Assembly: GCA_019186965.1 (NCBI GenBank) | Contig: JABARV010000018.1 | Coordinates: forward strand, 1 to 64,000 | Origin: Turneriella sp. | GTDB lineage: Bacteria; Spirochaetota; Leptospiria; Turneriellales; Turneriellaceae | Length of the DNA: 64,000 bases | Direction of reading: 5' to 3' | In this document: piece after piece, positions 42,892 to 48,845 of the stretch | Layout: each line of letters begins with the position of its first letter | How positions within the stretch are numbered: the stretch's first letter is position 1 | The notes under the pieces: generated by a model | The model's input: the letters and a program-made list of their open reading frames with translations, nothing else | Databases searched by the model: none | Told to the model about the DNA's origin: nothing | Translations under genes and position numbers: made by a program

Positions 42892-44175
42892 CTAAAACGA
42901 AATATCCCACTGCGCGCGGTAACGTTCTTCGGTCGCGTATCCTCCTGTAAGGTTTTTTAAGCGGTGGTGCGTCACCTCAAGTGAAATTTTATTCAAATGG
43001 CCTCGCTCAAACCAATTCAATACCCCCGAGTACTCTTCTTGATACACACCCACATTCTTTGAGTTGGTATCGATAAACGAAAATCGTGCGGCGGTTTCCA
43101 ATTGTGGAGGAATAAAACTCAGCACGGTATGCGGAAAGACACCTGCTTGCAGAAGCGCACCCCACAGTTGCGCTTCTGGAAGAATACCCGCTCTGTCTAT
43201 GATACGTTTTGCATGCGTCTCTTGCTTGAAATAAAAACCTTTATACACCGAGCGCATCTCGAAAACCGCTTGGTCTATTTGATAGCTTCCCATAGGCTTT
43301 CCCGCTACAAGCGTATATGCACTGGCCCCGGGTAAAGTACGGCAGCTTACCGCGTCTGTTTCAAACGCAGTGCAGTTGCTGCGGTTGGTCGCTGCAGCGA
43401 GTGCAAAATTGAGCATAAAGCGGGGGGTAAATTTGTAATCGCTTTGGCTAAATTTTATGATTCCCCCTACTGCGTTCCACTGCAATCGCGCCGCGTACAT
43501 GAGGTTTTCGTCGTCGTTCAAACGCTCCCCCACACCGTGTCCGGTAAAAATACCAAGCACATAATTAAAGTCGGCGGCGGTATTTTCAAAGAAACGCCCC
43601 AGAAGTTGTATACCTTGCTGACGATCGACGGTAAAAAGGTCGTTCAGGATTGAGCGGTTAACAAACTGTTGATACCCCGATGACGAGACCCGTTCGTCGT
43701 TGTAGATAACTTTAGCGCGACCAATGCGCAACGTCAGCCAAGCGAAGCGGTCTAACGTAATATGAAAATCACGCAAGACCGGCTGCGACCAATCGTATTG
43801 GATATAAAATTTAATCCACGGTTTATACGCGTGGCCTGCCAGCTTTAACCGCGCACGACGCACCATGAAAGATTGCGTGTTCTGTTTTAGACCCGCCACG
43901 CTACGCGGGTCGGCATCGAAGGGGCCTGCATACCTAAACTGCAAGCGGTGCAGCATGGAAAGCGAGTAATCACCGGCGCTAAAGGTGATGCCGTCATCGG
44001 TATAAGAAACAAAGTCCGGCTTGAGCGAGTTACTCTCTTTTGTTTCTTCTTTATTCTTTTCTATCGCCTCTGTCGTTGGCGTACCGGCGTTGCGTTCGCT
44101 GGAACGCGCTTCTGAAACTAAAAGCACGAAGAAGGCAAGCGCAATGCTATGGTAGAGTGTTCTTGTTGTTATCAT
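42892..44175 (-). CDS. Phosphate-selective porin, OprO/OprP family
   Basis: A 427-residue outer-membrane barrel. After a signal peptide (IALAFFVLLVSEA) and a Glu/Lys-rich linker come FSAGDYSLSMLHRLQFRY, SFMVRRARLKLAGHAYKPWIKFYIQYD and the RIGRAKVIYNDERVSSSGYQQFVNRS segment, all typical of porin P/O. These porins admit phosphate or polyphosphate. An operator-like dyad lies 52-85 bases upstream, matching one before pstS, so the porin is probably induced with the Pst importer. The start has an AGGAAAA ribosome site. Confidence 0.88.
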   Translation of the reverse strand: MITTRTLYHSIALAFFVLLVSEARSSERNAGTPTTEAIEKNKEETKESNSLKPDFVSYTDDGITFSAGDYSLSMLHRLQFRYAGPFDADPRSVAGLKQNTQSFMVRRARLKLAGHAYKPWIKFYIQYDWSQPVLRDFHITLDRFAWLTLRIGRAKVIYNDERVSSSGYQQFVNRSILNDLFTVDRQQGIQLLGRFFENTAADFNYVLGIFTGHGVGERLNDDENLMYAARLQWNAVGGIIKFSQSDYKFTPRFMLNFALAAATNRSNCTAFETDAVSCRTLPGASAYTLVAGKPMGSYQIDQAVFEMRSVYKGFYFKQETHAKRIIDRAGILPEAQLWGALLQAGVFPHTVLSFIPPQLETAARFSFIDTNSKNVGVYQEEYSGVLNWFERGHLNKISLEVTHHRLKNLTGGYATEERYRAQWDISF

Positions 44176-44226
44176 TTATTTTTCCTACTGAGGTTACATT
44201 TCCTAAAGGGAGAATAATACGTATAC

Positions 44227-44260
44227 AACATTTTGTTATTTAGCGAAATATAAACATGTT
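44227..44260. promoter_or_regulatory. Operator-like dyad upstream of the porin gene
   Basis: The 34-base dyad has AACATTTTGTTATTT on the left and AAATATAAACATGTT on the right around AGCG, with 11 of 15 positions symmetric. The same sequence, on the opposite strand, recurs before pstS at 44669-44701, sharing an identical ATATTTCGCTA core. A TATTAT -10-like box lies between it and the porin start. Confidence 0.65.
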
Positions 44261-44615
44261 ATTCTACTTGCCCCATTCGACTATTGATTTTATCTAAAAA
44301 ATCAAAATCTAAATTGAGAGTTTCATCGCCATCAAAAAATGTCTTGAGCTCTGCGTAGATAATCCCCCCCAAGTTATTGTTATCGTAAAGCTTAGGATGG
44401 ATACAGTACTCCACCCAGCGTCCTTGTTTATTATCTAACACTAAATCCGAATCGCGCAGAATCGAAAGGTGTTGTGAAATTGTAGGCATAGAGAGGCGGA
44501 GCATGAGTTTTATATCATTCACTACCAGAGCACGGCGCGAGAGTAGCGCAAGAATACGCAGGCGTTGTTTGTCGGAAAGAGCCTTAAACATACGTTCGTA
44601 TTCGCGTAATTGCAT
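44259..44615 (-). CDS. ArsR-family transcriptional repressor
   Basis: A winged-helix regulator of about 118 residues (from the ATG at 44615; a TTG at 44654 would give 131). The signature is ALSDKQRLRILALLSRRALVVNDIKLMLRLSMPTISQHLSILRDSDLVLDNKQGRWVEYCI, with the recognition helix MPTISQHLSIL. There is no cysteine-based metal site in the usual CVC position, so the signal is not obviously a metal. Divergent from pstS and just upstream of the porin, between two matching operator-like dyads; it is the best local candidate for binding them. Confidence 0.85.
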   Translation of the reverse strand: MQLREYERMFKALSDKQRLRILALLSRRALVVNDIKLMLRLSMPTISQHLSILRDSDLVLDNKQGRWVEYCIHPKLYDNNNLGGIIYAELKTFFDGDETLNLDFDFLDKINSRMGQVE

Positions 44616-44668
44616 AATTAACGAATTGTCTAAGTTAAGTACCGTGTCAAACAATGCACACAGCTCTC

Positions 44669-44701
44669 AACGTATAGATATTTCGCTATTTACCTAAATG
44701 T
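44669..44701. promoter_or_regulatory. Operator-like dyad upstream of pstS
   Basis: A 33-base sequence, from AACGTATAGATATTTCG to CCTAAATGT, that matches the inverted porin operator at most positions, including an exact ATATTTCGCTA core and a final AAATGT. It is 38 bases before the pstS ATG and 53 bases before the arsR ATG, so it could serve both promoters. Confidence 0.65.
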
Positions 44702-44739
44702 GGATATACAAATAGACTAACCTAATTTTCGTGACCGCA

Positions 44740-45615
44740 ATGAAAAAACTTACAGCAACGATAGGACTACTCTTCCTCGCGCTCCTTGCGTGTAGCCGCA
44801 AAAACAACACACTCAAAATTGCCGGCTCCGACACCATGGTACAAATTGGGCAGCACCTTGCTAAAGCATACATGCAACAAGACCCCCAAAAGCTCATTTC
44901 CATCCAAGGCGGTGGAAGCGGCACCGGTATCGCGGCACTCCTTAATGGCTCAACCGACATTGCCAGTGCATCGCGGGAAATGAAACCGGAAGAATTGATG
45001 CGGGCGCAACAACGCGGGATTACAGTCAAAGAATACGTTATTGCAAATGACGCGTTAGTCATTGCCGTCCATCCCTCGAACAAAATTTCAAAACTCACTA
45101 TCGAGCAACTGAGCGGTATTTACGCCGGTAAAATTACCAACTGGAGCGCGTTGGGCGGTGACAACAAACCCATTCTTGCAATCTCCCGCGACAGCAACTC
45201 GGGTACACACGTTTATTTCAAAGACGAAGTGCTGCGTCAAGGGAAGACGGTAAATAAAGGAGAGAAATCCACCGACCCACTCGCCCGTTTAGAATTTGGT
45301 AAAAATGTTACTTTCGCCGTGTCTTCACAAGCGATTAGCGATCAAGTTAAAGTCAATACGGCCGCTATTGGCTACTTGGGCATCGGCTGGGCGGCGGAAG
45401 GGGTTAAATCTGTTACAATTAGCCGAGACGGCAAGGCGTTTTACGCACCCACTTTGGAAAATACAGTGCAAGGAAAGTATCCCCTTGCCCGCGGATTACA
45501 AATGTACGTCGCTGTAAAGGAAGACCAAAAGGCCATTGAGTTTATGAATTTTGTACTCAGTCCTGAAGGGCAAAAAATTGTTCAAGAGCAGGGCTTTATA
45601 CCGGTCAAGAAATAG
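44740..45615 (+). CDS. pstS: Phosphate-binding lipoprotein PstS
   Basis: The high-affinity phosphate receptor of the Pst ABC importer. The ATG at 44740 gives a lipoprotein signal with lipobox LLAC (Cys at about residue 19), anchoring it to the membrane. Phosphate-binding motifs are visible: KIAGSDTMVQIG, GGGSGTGIAALLNGSTDIASASR and SRDSNSGTH. A GTG nine bases earlier is in frame but offers no better ribosome site. It is the first gene of pstSCAB-phoU, with three bases to pstC. Confidence 0.93.
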   Translation: MKKLTATIGLLFLALLACSRKNNTLKIAGSDTMVQIGQHLAKAYMQQDPQKLISIQGGGSGTGIAALLNGSTDIASASREMKPEELMRAQQRGITVKEYVIANDALVIAVHPSNKISKLTIEQLSGIYAGKITNWSALGGDNKPILAISRDSNSGTHVYFKDEVLRQGKTVNKGEKSTDPLARLEFGKNVTFAVSSQAISDQVKVNTAAIGYLGIGWAAEGVKSVTISRDGKAFYAPTLENTVQGKYPLARGLQMYVAVKEDQKAIEFMNFVLSPEGQKIVQEQGFIPVKK

Positions 45616-45618
45616 GTT

Positions 45619-46503
45619 ATGAAAAAGCGCAATCGACTTAGCGAAATCCTTGTAGAAAAAGGAGTCATAAGACTCGCCGGTTACACGGCAGTCGTTGTTC
45701 TCCTTTTAATTCTCTTTTTCATGTTCCGCGAAGGCACTCCTTTTTTAGAAACGTATTCCATCTCCAGTTTTCTTTTCAAGAACGAGTGGTTCCCCCTCTC
45801 GGATCGCTATGGCATGCTACCGCTCATCACCGGCAGCGCCATGGTCACTTTGGTGGCACTCTCCTTTTCTATCCCACTTTCTTTCGCCACCGCTATATTT
45901 ATGTCCGAGCTGGCGCCGCCAGCGGTGCGCAACACTCTGAAGCTATCGATTGAAGTCCTCTCGTCGATCCCTTCGGTTGTGTTTGGTTTTTTAGGCATCA
46001 TCTTCGTTGGCCCATATATTCAAAAAGCATTCCATCTCACAACGGGGCTCAACGCATTCACCGCCGGCATCTTGCTCGCGTTCATGGCGCTGCCCACCAT
46101 TGCGAGCATTGCCGACGAATCACTACAAGCCGTGCCTAGAAATCTCAAAGAGGCCTCTTTGGCGCTGGGAGCAAACCGCATACAGACAATCCTACGCGTC
46201 ACTTTCCCGGCCGCTTCTTCCGGTATTATCGCCGGCGTTATGTTGGGGGTGGGACGCGTCTTAGGAGAAACAATGACGGTCATGATGGTCGCCGGTGGTT
46301 CTGCGCAAATTGCACTTTCGCCCATGGCGCCTGTGCGCACGATGACTGGCACCATCGCCTCAGAGATGGGTGAGGTGGTAACCGGAGACGTGCACTACCG
46401 TGCACTTTTTATGATAGGGTTGTTGCTTTTTGTCATCACATTGACTATCAATACATTGAGCGGCATCATCATTGAGCGCATTCGGCAGAGGCAAGGCGTA
46501 TGA
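45619..46503 (+). CDS. pstC: Phosphate ABC transporter permease PstC
   Basis: One of the two membrane subunits of the Pst channel: 294 residues, about six helices, with the EAA-like cytoplasmic loop EASLALGANRIQTILRVTFPAASSGIIAGVMLGVGR. PstC and PstA pair to form the phosphate path. The stop overlaps the pstA start by four bases. Confidence 0.92.
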   Translation: MKKRNRLSEILVEKGVIRLAGYTAVVVLLLILFFMFREGTPFLETYSISSFLFKNEWFPLSDRYGMLPLITGSAMVTLVALSFSIPLSFATAIFMSELAPPAVRNTLKLSIEVLSSIPSVVFGFLGIIFVGPYIQKAFHLTTGLNAFTAGILLAFMALPTIASIADESLQAVPRNLKEASLALGANRIQTILRVTFPAASSGIIAGVMLGVGRVLGETMTVMMVAGGSAQIALSPMAPVRTMTGTIASEMGEVVTGDVHYRALFMIGLLLFVITLTINTLSGIIIERIRQRQGV

Positions 46504-47357
46504 TAAAACGCACGACACGTATCGGTGATGTCTTCGGCTACGCCGTTATCTACTCGTTGACCGCAATTACATTTATCCCGCTTTTAGCGTTTATAGTTTA
46601 TATCGTTGCCAAAGGCATCGGCCGCATCGATTTAGATTTCCTCTTCGGCGCATCGTCTTCTTTGGAAAGTGGCGGCATTTTCGCGCCATTATACGGTACA
46701 ATAATACTAACGCTCCTGTCGCTTTTATTCTCTGTCCCCATTGCACTTTTTGCGGCGATTTATTTATCCGAGTACGCCCGTAAAAATCGCTGGTTTGCCA
46801 TCATCGAATTGACGATTGTGAACTTAGCGGGAGTACCCTCGGTGGTGTACGGTCTTTTCGGACTCGGCTTATTCGTCGTGTTCTTCGGTTTTGGTAAATC
46901 GTTATTGGCGGGTGCCCTCACCATGGCTTGCATGTCGCTTCCCCTCCTTATTACTGTCTTTTATCAGGCACTCAAAGCCGTACCCAACACACTCAGGGAG
47001 GCGTCGCTTTCCCTCGGCGCAAGCAAACTGGCGACGGCGTTCCGCGTCGTGGTGCCGACAGCAACACCGGGGATATTCACCGGTGTCATCCTTGCGACCG
47101 CGCGTATCGCCGGTGAAACCGCGCCCGTCCTTTTTACCGTGGCGGCGTATTACATGCCACAGTTGCCACAAAGCGTTTACGACCAATCGATGCTCCTCTC
47201 GTACCATCTATACGCTTTAAGTACGCAAAACAGCGCCGCCAGCGAAGAACAAAAATTTGCCGTCACTTTGGTGCTCGTCACTCTGGTTTTACTCGTCAAC
47301 GCGCTTGCAATTTTAGGCCGCGCCCGCGCGCGCAAAAAAATTGGAAATCTGGAATAA
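46500..47357 (+). CDS. pstA: Phosphate ABC transporter permease PstA
   Basis: The partner of PstC, 285 residues with six membrane helices and the loop REASLSLGASKLATAFRVVVPTATPGIFTGVILATARIAGETAP that docks onto PstB. The RIAGETAP ending of this loop is typical of PstA. ATGA overlap upstream, three bases to pstB downstream. Confidence 0.92.
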   Translation: MIKRTTRIGDVFGYAVIYSLTAITFIPLLAFIVYIVAKGIGRIDLDFLFGASSSLESGGIFAPLYGTIILTLLSLLFSVPIALFAAIYLSEYARKNRWFAIIELTIVNLAGVPSVVYGLFGLGLFVVFFGFGKSLLAGALTMACMSLPLLITVFYQALKAVPNTLREASLSLGASKLATAFRVVVPTATPGIFTGVILATARIAGETAPVLFTVAAYYMPQLPQSVYDQSMLLSYHLYALSTQNSAASEEQKFAVTLVLVTLVLLVNALAILGRARARKKIGNLE

Positions 47358-47360
47358 TAT

Positions 47361-48137
47361 ATGGAAACACAAAACGAAACAGCCCCTATCTTAACGCTGC
47401 GCAATTTGAACATGCGCTACGGTGAAAAAAAGGCCCTCACCGACATCAATATGGATATTTTACCGCGCTCCATCACCGCCTTCATTGGACCTTCCGGTTG
47501 CGGTAAATCTTCACTTTTGCGCTGCTTTAACCGCATGAACGACTTAATTGAAAACGCATTAGTTACCGGTGAAATCCTTTTCGACGGCCAACTCAACATC
47601 AACGATGCGAAAATTGACGTCACTCAGTTGAGACGTAAAATTGGTATGGTCTTTCAAAAGCCCAACCCTTTTCCAAAGTCGATTTATGAAAACATTGCGT
47701 ATGGCATCCGTGTCGCCGCCAAGAGTACAAAATCAGAAATCGACGATCGTGTCGAAGATGCTCTGAAAAAAGTGGGTTTATGGAAAGAAGTCGCCGACCG
47801 CTTAAAAGATGCGGGGACCCGTCTTTCAGGCGGGCAAGCGCAGCGGCTATGTATCGCCCGCACCATAGCGACACGCCCTGAAATTATTTTGATGGACGAA
47901 CCGACGAGCGCTTTAGACCCTTTGAGCACGCAAACGGTCGAAGAGCTCACGCTCGAACTCAAAGAAAACTACACTGTTGTCATAGTTACTCACAACATGC
48001 AACAGGCAGCACGGATTTCAGACAACACCGCATTCTTTTTACACGGCGAGCTTATTGAGTACAGCCCAACAAAGCTGATGTTCACCCGCCCCAACAACAA
48101 ACGCACCGAAGATTATATCACAGGGAGATTCGGATGA
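47361..48137 (+). CDS. pstB: Phosphate ABC transporter ATPase PstB
   Basis: The ATPase of the Pst importer, 258 residues. Walker [18 protein letters not shown] (PstB-specific), Q-loop [20 protein letters not shown], signature LSGGQAQRL, Walker [13 protein letters not shown] and switch VTHNMQQA are all present. The NRMNDLI and PNPFP stretches distinguish PstB from other ABC ATPases. Confidence 0.96.
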
Positions 48138-48194: not shown

Positions 48195-48845
48195 ATGTTA
48201 ATTATTGAAAAAGCGCTTAAACAATTACGCGAAAATTTGCACGCGATGACAGAGGTCGTCATCGACATGCTCGAAATGGTCGTCGTTTCACTTGACAAAG
48301 GAAATTTAGAAGACTTAGAAAATATTTTCAAACAGGATAAGTATTTAGACCAGCTTGAAAAATCTCTCGACCGGCAATCCATGGAGCTTTTGGCGCTTAT
48401 CAACCCCCACGCTTCAGATTTGCGCTTTGTCTTTTCTGTTATCAAGACAAACGGCAATCTGGAGCGCATGGGCGATGAAATGAAAAACGTCGCGCGTGAA
48501 GCAAAAAATCTGAAAGGAAAAATCCCCGATGAACTGAAAGAGTTGGCGCGCCTTGTTTTTGAGATGTCTAAAAAGACTTTTCTTGCATTGGCACAAAGCG
48601 ACGCAAAGCTGTCGATGAATATCATTTTAGAAGACGACACCATCGACACTTTGGAATACAACATTGTCACAAAATATCCTCAACTCGATATTGCTTTAAC
48701 GGCAAAGGCTCTCGAGCGTATCGCCGACCACGCCACCAACATCGCAGAGAGCATCATCTATTCTGTCGAAGGGGTCGATGTTCGGCACGAGAATACAATC
48801 AAACAACGGGCTTTTGAAAAAGAATACACGTCGCCACTCCCATAG
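48195..48845 (+). CDS. phoU: Phosphate-transport regulator PhoU
   Basis: PhoU signals phosphate sufficiency and restrains Pst activity. The 216-residue helical protein holds two three-helix repeats, each with an E/D-x3-D metal-type signature (VIKTNGNLERMGDEMKNVA and ALERIADHATNIAESI). An AGGAG site precedes the ATG. Its last 47 bases run opposite to the end of the menaquinone methyltransferase gene. No sensor kinase or response regulator gene of the PhoR/PhoB type lies nearby. Confidence 0.92.
   Translation: MLIIEKALKQLRENLHAMTEVVIDMLEMVVVSLDKGNLEDLENIFKQDKYLDQLEKSLDRQSMELLALINPHASDLRFVFSVIKTNGNLERMGDEMKNVAREAKNLKGKIPDELKELARLVFEMSKKTFLALAQSDAKLSMNIILEDDTIDTLEYNIVTKYPQLDIALTAKALERIADHATNIAESIIYSVEGVDVRHENTIKQRAFEKEYTSPLP

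Follow-up and report, generated by a model that had tools for sequence, protein, structure and literature searches.

A predicted palindromic operator at phosphate-starvation genes of Turneriella-type spirochaetes and its likely link to an ArsR-family repressor

Introduction

Phosphate starvation is generally taught to be under the control of PhoB-type two-component systems, a scheme from which control by a single ArsR-type repressor would depart. The PHO boxes of these systems are 11-nt direct repeats (PMC4415409). ArsR control of a pst gene has been described in Agrobacterium tumefaciens 5A, where ArsR1 acts as repressor on pstS1 and phoB1, both part of an arsenic island, and responds to As(III) regardless of phosphate (PMC7965956); the actual phosphate response of this organism is governed by another locus, pho/pst2 (PMC7965956). 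For another member of the family, ArArsR of Arsenicibacter rosenii, the binding site has been mapped by DNase I footprinting to TTTTATCGTAATATTGCGATCACAATC, which contains the spaced motif TCG-N8-CGA (PMC11868830). A search of the open-licence literature found neither a Turneriella phosphate regulon nor an ArsR protein replacing PhoB.

Here, we describe a locus in a stretch of 64,000 nucleotides (hereafter the window; contig JABARV010000018.1) from the genome of a Turneriella sp. (G000), in which an ArsR-type gene is placed between a porin gene and pstS, and we compare it with genomes of the Turneriella family, of the phylum and with the systems above. The family consists of free-living spirochaetes.

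Results

An ArsR-family protein without arsenic ligands next to pst genes

The ArsR-type gene (44259..44615, minus strand, ATG at 44615) encodes a protein of 118 aa, which is assigned to the ArsR-family repressors by its winged-helix domain (Pfam HTH_5, E 1.3e-10, over the cut-off), its orthologues, a ligand alignment and its predicted fold. Its PDB profile matches are HlyU, CzrA and SmtB, and the predicted structure (mean pLDDT 89) shows the ArsR/SmtB fold, resembling SqrR, HlyU and CzrA. On one side lies the gene of an OprP-like porin (42892..44175, minus strand; Pfam Porin_O_P, E 1.2e-9), on the other pstS for the phosphate-binding protein (44740..45615, plus strand; Pfam PBP_like_2), whose orthologues are found beside or near the ArsR gene in three relatives; both are predicted targets. 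Further along the plus strand we find pstC (45619..46503), pstA (46500..47357) and pstB (47361..48137), identified as open reading frames with conserved synteny, and phoU (48195..48845; Pfam PhoU, E 2.3e-30).

The alignment shows that the cysteines of arsenic sensing are missing. The Cys32-x-Cys34 ligands of arsenic-responsive ArsR proteins (type 1, R773-like), placed where the DNA-binding domain begins, are absent from all ten family orthologues; the As(III) ligand motif LCVC has become LVVN in the window protein and its nine orthologues (10/10), and where arsenic-type relatives read LCVCEI, all ten read LVVNDI. The window protein retains a single, unconserved cysteine. With LVVN in place of LCVC and no conserved cysteine, it is unlikely to act as a thiol-based arsenic sensor, and a repressor of this family without cysteine ligands must read another signal. 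Reading of the alignment also showed the SmtB/CzrA-type alpha-5 metal-sensor pattern, D-x-H...H-x2-H/E in the last helix, to be absent, and no arsB, ACR3, arsC, arsD or arsA neighbour was recognisable among the open reading frames read at 38-54 kb of the window.

Orthologues occur at 82-88% in five relatives, among them G005 (chromosome of 4,384,015 bp), which we take to be Turneriella parva DSM 21527; T. parva is cultivable. Four more, at about 60%, are found in other genera of the Turneriella family, and G000 itself has three further, weaker ArsR matches. The arsR gene adjoins pstS or lies very near it in G000, G002, G004 and G005, is not beside pst in G006 or G007, and has no close pstS in the outer genera; in G008, G011 and G012 it adjoins a SpoIIE gene that has a copy of the palindrome described below in front of it or one gene upstream. 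In four genomes the arsR gene itself is next to a copy of the palindrome or only a short way from one. SpoIIE-type phosphatase genes following phoU or neighbouring arsR, with the palindrome in front or one gene upstream, were seen at L022:11903-13252, L027:6037-8154 and L028:7303-9636, and a role of these phosphatases in signalling is conceivable.

Two matching palindromes in front of the porin gene and pstS

A sequence-only reading of the window had described two matching, oppositely oriented dyads of 33-34 bp that flank the ArsR-type gene, the first preceding the porin gene and the second pstS, and that share a core and an AAATGT end. Arrangement and sequence held: ATATTTCGCTA and AAATGT are present in both sites in the same register, and, each read towards its own gene, the sites are identical at 20/24 positions. 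The length did not hold, the unit being a symmetrical inverted repeat of 20-24 bp with the consensus ATATTTCGTTAATTAACGAAATAT; since it is a palindrome, the opposite orientation of the two copies matters only relative to the promoters.

The porin-side copy, ATATTTCGCTAAATAACAAAATGT (44228..44251, minus strand), scores 31.5 bits against a position weight matrix and is the top profile match in the 3.08-Mb genome (E 0.0018); the pstS-side copy, ATATTTCGCTATTTACCTAAATGT (44678..44701, plus strand), scores 28.6 bits and ranks second (E 0.0068). The profile was built from 31 sites and both copies were in the training set. When the two intergenic stretches were shuffled 150 times (Markov), 18/24 identities were reached once and 20 never, and about 0.0008 pairs at 19/24 or more are expected under independence. 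All further matches in G000 have E-values of 0.13 and above and lie inside genes; those in a glmS-like gene and others were set aside as chance, as were intragenic matches at lpxC-like and efflux genes in control genomes. The search for further dyad copies in the genome, which the earlier reading had named as a check, yielded no other convincing site, and the regulon of G000 is supported at two promoters only. These two sites are probably the strongest operators of the ArsR-type repressor in this genome, a prediction for which there are no binding data.

A weak palindrome, ACAATTCGTTAATTATGCAATTAC (44606..44629, minus strand; 12.9 bits), covers the ArsR start codon and is not conserved at such strength in relatives. 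It leaves autoregulation possible in G000; conserved autoregulation of arsR was rejected, as the weak site is present in G000 and G004 only and in no other relative.

The palindrome marks phosphate genes across the Turneriella family

In a first survey, consisting of a pattern search with one mismatch followed by reading of the contexts, we found the palindrome at pstS, pstC, PiT, a glycosyltransferase gene, an acyltransferase/acetyltransferase gene, a SpoIIE-domain gene preceding a metallophosphatase and others. By Pfam, the target products comprise PHO4 phosphate transporters, polyphosphate kinase, Porin_O_P, PBP_like_2 and an OlsF-like domain pair. The site before pstS is conserved in G002, G004, G005 and G006, and further copies in Turneriella-type spirochaetes precede the genes of an ornithine-lipid synthase and of a PlcP/Agt-like set for lipid remodelling, which we take to be OlsF, PlcP and Agt from their domain content and from the known lipid remodelling under phosphate starvation.

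A second, function-first check took protein families, rather than the motif, as its starting point. For the long PiT subtype, a site was present in front in 5/5 genomes (17-30 bits), compared to 0/7 for short PiT, and for the two-domain OlsF-type lipid synthase in 7/7 (16-28 bits), compared to 0/5 for other Acetyltransf_5 proteins. Each of six Turneriella-type genomes (G000, G001, G002, G004, G005, G006) has one porin with a site, their remaining porins having none; the start of Agt-like genes could be read in seven genomes, and five of these have a site there, one of the five being weak; the PPK1 gene of G011 has one as well. Many of these sites lie outside the training set, namely those of PiT in G008, G009 and G012, of the lipid synthase in G002, G003, G009 and G011, of porins in G001, G002, G005 and G006, and of PPK in G011. 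With a reversed matrix, the 159 kb of function-first loci gave no match at 12 bits or more, against 25 real ones, and 432 kb of sequence gave none at 14 bits or more, against 68; as the latter sequence was chosen largely for motif matches, the count of 68 is inflated.

The predicted operator is hence common to phosphate-uptake and phosphorus-sparing genes of the family, as in a phosphate-starvation regulon. We regard the motif, the places where it occurs and the phosphate genes that it marks as firm; they are shown by sequence, in the absence of expression data. The regulon had earlier been read as local, which is partly correct: in relatives the sites are scattered round the genome, and G000 has only two convincing ones. 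No close Agt homologue was found in G000, and its sole Acetyltransf_5 protein is of the other kind and has no site.

In G001, G003 and G010, all 83-84% complete, we found no ArsR orthologue even though sites are present. The reading of these genomes as evidence against ArsR was set aside for G001, whose contig breaks inside pstC and loses the part of the operon in which pstS and arsR would lie; G010 remains unexplained.

Several observations were made alongside. The long PiT-type transporters (PHO4 genes of G009, G010, G008, G012 and G011; L197-L201) measure about 750-880 aa, extend at the C terminus past the transporter part, and differ from the 330-aa form in Turneriella. At L082:1425-5198, and also in G002 and G003, a long near-perfect palindrome (AACATTTCGT...ACGAAATGTT) lies between divergent genes for an RPE65-type oxygenase and an FMN oxidoreductase. 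Variants of the form TTAG...CTAA are found at TonB/ExbBD, a TonB-dependent receptor and a second pstS-like gene (L186:1538-10977 in G005; L093 in G001), and could possibly be read by a related regulator.

Promoter geometry

At pstS, porin, pstC and PiT genes, a TWTAC-like -10 element follows the palindrome after 2-5 bp, so that the palindrome covers the -35 element and the spacer. In the window, the inferred -10 elements are TATACG for the porin (44220..44225, minus strand, 2 bp after the palindrome) and TATACA for pstS (44705..44710, plus strand, 3 bp after it), both at the conserved position; neither was called when the region was scanned for generic sigma-70 promoters and terminators, the yield of which did not exceed chance. 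At agt and olsF, in most genomes, an upstream TTGAC box is spaced such that the -10 element falls inside the palindrome, and the start codon usually follows the palindrome at about 10 bp. In a minority of targets, namely PPK, one porin and one SpoIIE gene, the palindrome is directly followed by a TTGAC box, an ambiguous arrangement that is open to an activator as well. While this geometry is shown by the sequences, the mode of action is inferred: a palindrome over -35 or -10 elements would fit repression, which we regard as likely without binding or expression data.

The same predicted operator at arsenic loci outside the family

Among 198 genomes of the phylum, nine outside the family have a match at E 0.01 or better, against about two expected; none of the sites at ArsR loci outside the family was in the training set. 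In two distant spirochaetes, G050 and G083, the best genome-wide match lies between an ArsR gene of the LCVCEI type and a divergent ACR3-type permease gene, and their second ArsR loci carry the related sequences ATATTTCGTATAATATAGAAATAT and ATATTTCGAATAATATAGAAATAT. In G076, the best genome-wide match is found before pstS in an ars island, and in G198 the site follows a truncated ArsR-like frame at a distance of 83 bp; the five remaining matches are chance-like or unexplained. Given some four ArsR genes in a genome, the presence of one within 1 kb of two or three out of nine matches is, by our estimate, far beyond chance. On this sequence evidence, the link of the palindrome to ArsR-type proteins is independent of the Turneriella family.

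The G076 cluster (L245) comprises pstSCAB, a gene for a PhoU-like protein that is extended at its C terminus, two arsR genes and arsD-like and arsA-like genes. Near-perfect ATATTTCGATATTT(A/T)TCGAAATAT palindromes were also noted in two genomes of another family, at L248:1631 (G181) and L247:6000 (G198).

No PhoB above the cut-off

None of 14 genomes, all 13 family genomes included, contains a PhoB protein over the cut-off of NCBIfam TIGR02154. This absence is shown for the cut-off, which is strict: it was passed in only 2/14 control genomes, and a divergent PhoB can fall below it. Those of the best-matching response regulators that we inspected, together with the kinases next to them, resemble KdpE, CreB, CpxR and CusR. 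The window sites are no PHO box of 11-nt direct repeats, the motif there being an inverted repeat. On the cut-off, repeat symmetry and promoter position, we rejected PhoB as the binder.

Discussion

We propose that the window ArsR is likely to be the repressor of a phosphate-starvation regulon, in place of PhoB; binding, repression and a signal that tracks phosphate are all inferred, as there are no biochemical or expression data. In this model, both palindromes would serve as operators for the ArsR-family protein whose gene they flank; we regard this protein as the probable binder and repression as the probable mode. Under sufficient phosphate, an ArsR dimer on the palindrome would block RNA polymerase, at the -35 element and spacer of pstS and the porin gene and at the -10 element of agt and olsF in relatives. 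Under starvation, it would be released, switching on genes for uptake (porin, Pst, PiT), polyphosphate and phosphorus-sparing lipids. The repressor may descend from an arsenic-type ArsR, or share its operator, having lost the cysteine ligands. Several points count against the model: sites without an ArsR orthologue in G001, G003 and G010, the position of arsR away from pst in G006 and G007, the weakness of the possible autoregulatory site, and the TTGAC boxes that follow the palindrome in a minority of targets.

That an ArsR-like repressor acts instead of PhoB had been suggested from the window alone. The comparative evidence supports this, because the motif is found family-wide at phosphate genes, the operator recurs at unrelated arsenic ArsR genes, no PhoB passes the cut-off and the promoter geometry is repressor-like; binding and expression data are lacking. 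It had also been said that the idea would fall if the dyad were the Pho box of the lineage, bound by PhoB. The findings do not bear this out, the motif being an inverted repeat and no PhoB being over the cut-off.

The alternative that survives best, though we consider it unlikely, is that the palindrome is an ArsR-family operator read by an arsenic-responsive paralogue, which would make pst and porin arsenic genes, as for Agrobacterium ArsR1. In its favour, the arsenic ArsR genes of G050 and G083 have the same operator, G000 has three further, if weaker, ArsR matches, and ArsR1 represses pstS1 by As(III), not phosphate (PMC7965956). However, it is the cysteine-less ArsR that the sites flank, rather than a paralogue; in relatives, the target genes serve to save phosphorus (olsF, agt, PPK, PiT); and none of the family sites inspected belongs to an efflux locus with ACR3 or arsR.

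Less probable still is a PhoB-type response regulator that binds the dyads as an activator, which would make them the PHO boxes of the lineage. The targets are indeed classical Pho regulon genes, and the site takes the place of the -35 box in pstS-type promoters. Against this stand the inverted repeat in place of 11-nt direct repeats (PMC4415409), the lack of a PhoB over the cut-off in 13 family genomes, with the inspected regulators being KdpE-, CreB-, CpxR- or CusR-like, the position over the -10 element and start at agt and olsF, which is ill-suited to an activator, and the presence of the same motif at arsenic ArsR/ACR3 loci. Equally improbable is an activating or dual-mode ArsR that binds just upstream of or at the -35 element in starvation, which would suit the few palindromes that directly precede a TTGAC box (PPK, one SpoIIE gene, one porin), but not those over the -10 element and start at agt and olsF; ArsR proteins are, moreover, generally repressors.

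Returning to the repressor model, a bolder reading would be that a one-component ArsR-family protein, having lost its arsenic ligands and kept an arsenic-type operator, replaced PhoB-PhoR as master regulator of the Turneriella family and senses a phosphate-linked intracellular signal via a new site. We lean towards this reading, if only by a narrow margin. If true, it would show how the sensor of a toxic analogue was turned into a nutrient sensor, using what looks like the operator of an arsenic operon. It would also provide a predicted regulon for a group on whose regulation very few data exist, and would raise the question of which signal a cysteine-less ArsR senses.

ArsR control of Pst had been said to be new if confirmed, which has to be qualified, as arsenic islands offer a partial precedent (PMC7965956). 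As is predicted for the window protein, Agrobacterium ArsR1 is an ArsR-family repressor bound before pstS, in an island with pst genes (PMC7965956); unlike ArsR1, the window ArsR has no cysteine ligands, no PhoB over the cut-off is found alongside, and the target set includes lipid remodelling, PiT and PPK. Where pst genes lie in arsenic islands, as in G076, the same operator precedes pstS and ArsR genes are part of the cluster, as in the window; the island ArsR proteins, however, have kept their cysteines and adjoin ars genes, of which none was recognisable at the window locus. ArArsR resembles the family system in the TCG-N8-CGA spacing, A+T-rich middle and -35 overlap of its site, but controls arsenic genes and binds As(III) via cysteines (PMC11868830). 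The PhoB-PhoR regulon, finally, has the same kinds of target genes as the palindrome set, while its regulator is a two-component activator on direct repeats and that of the Turneriella family, as proposed here, a one-component repressor on a palindrome (PMC4415409).
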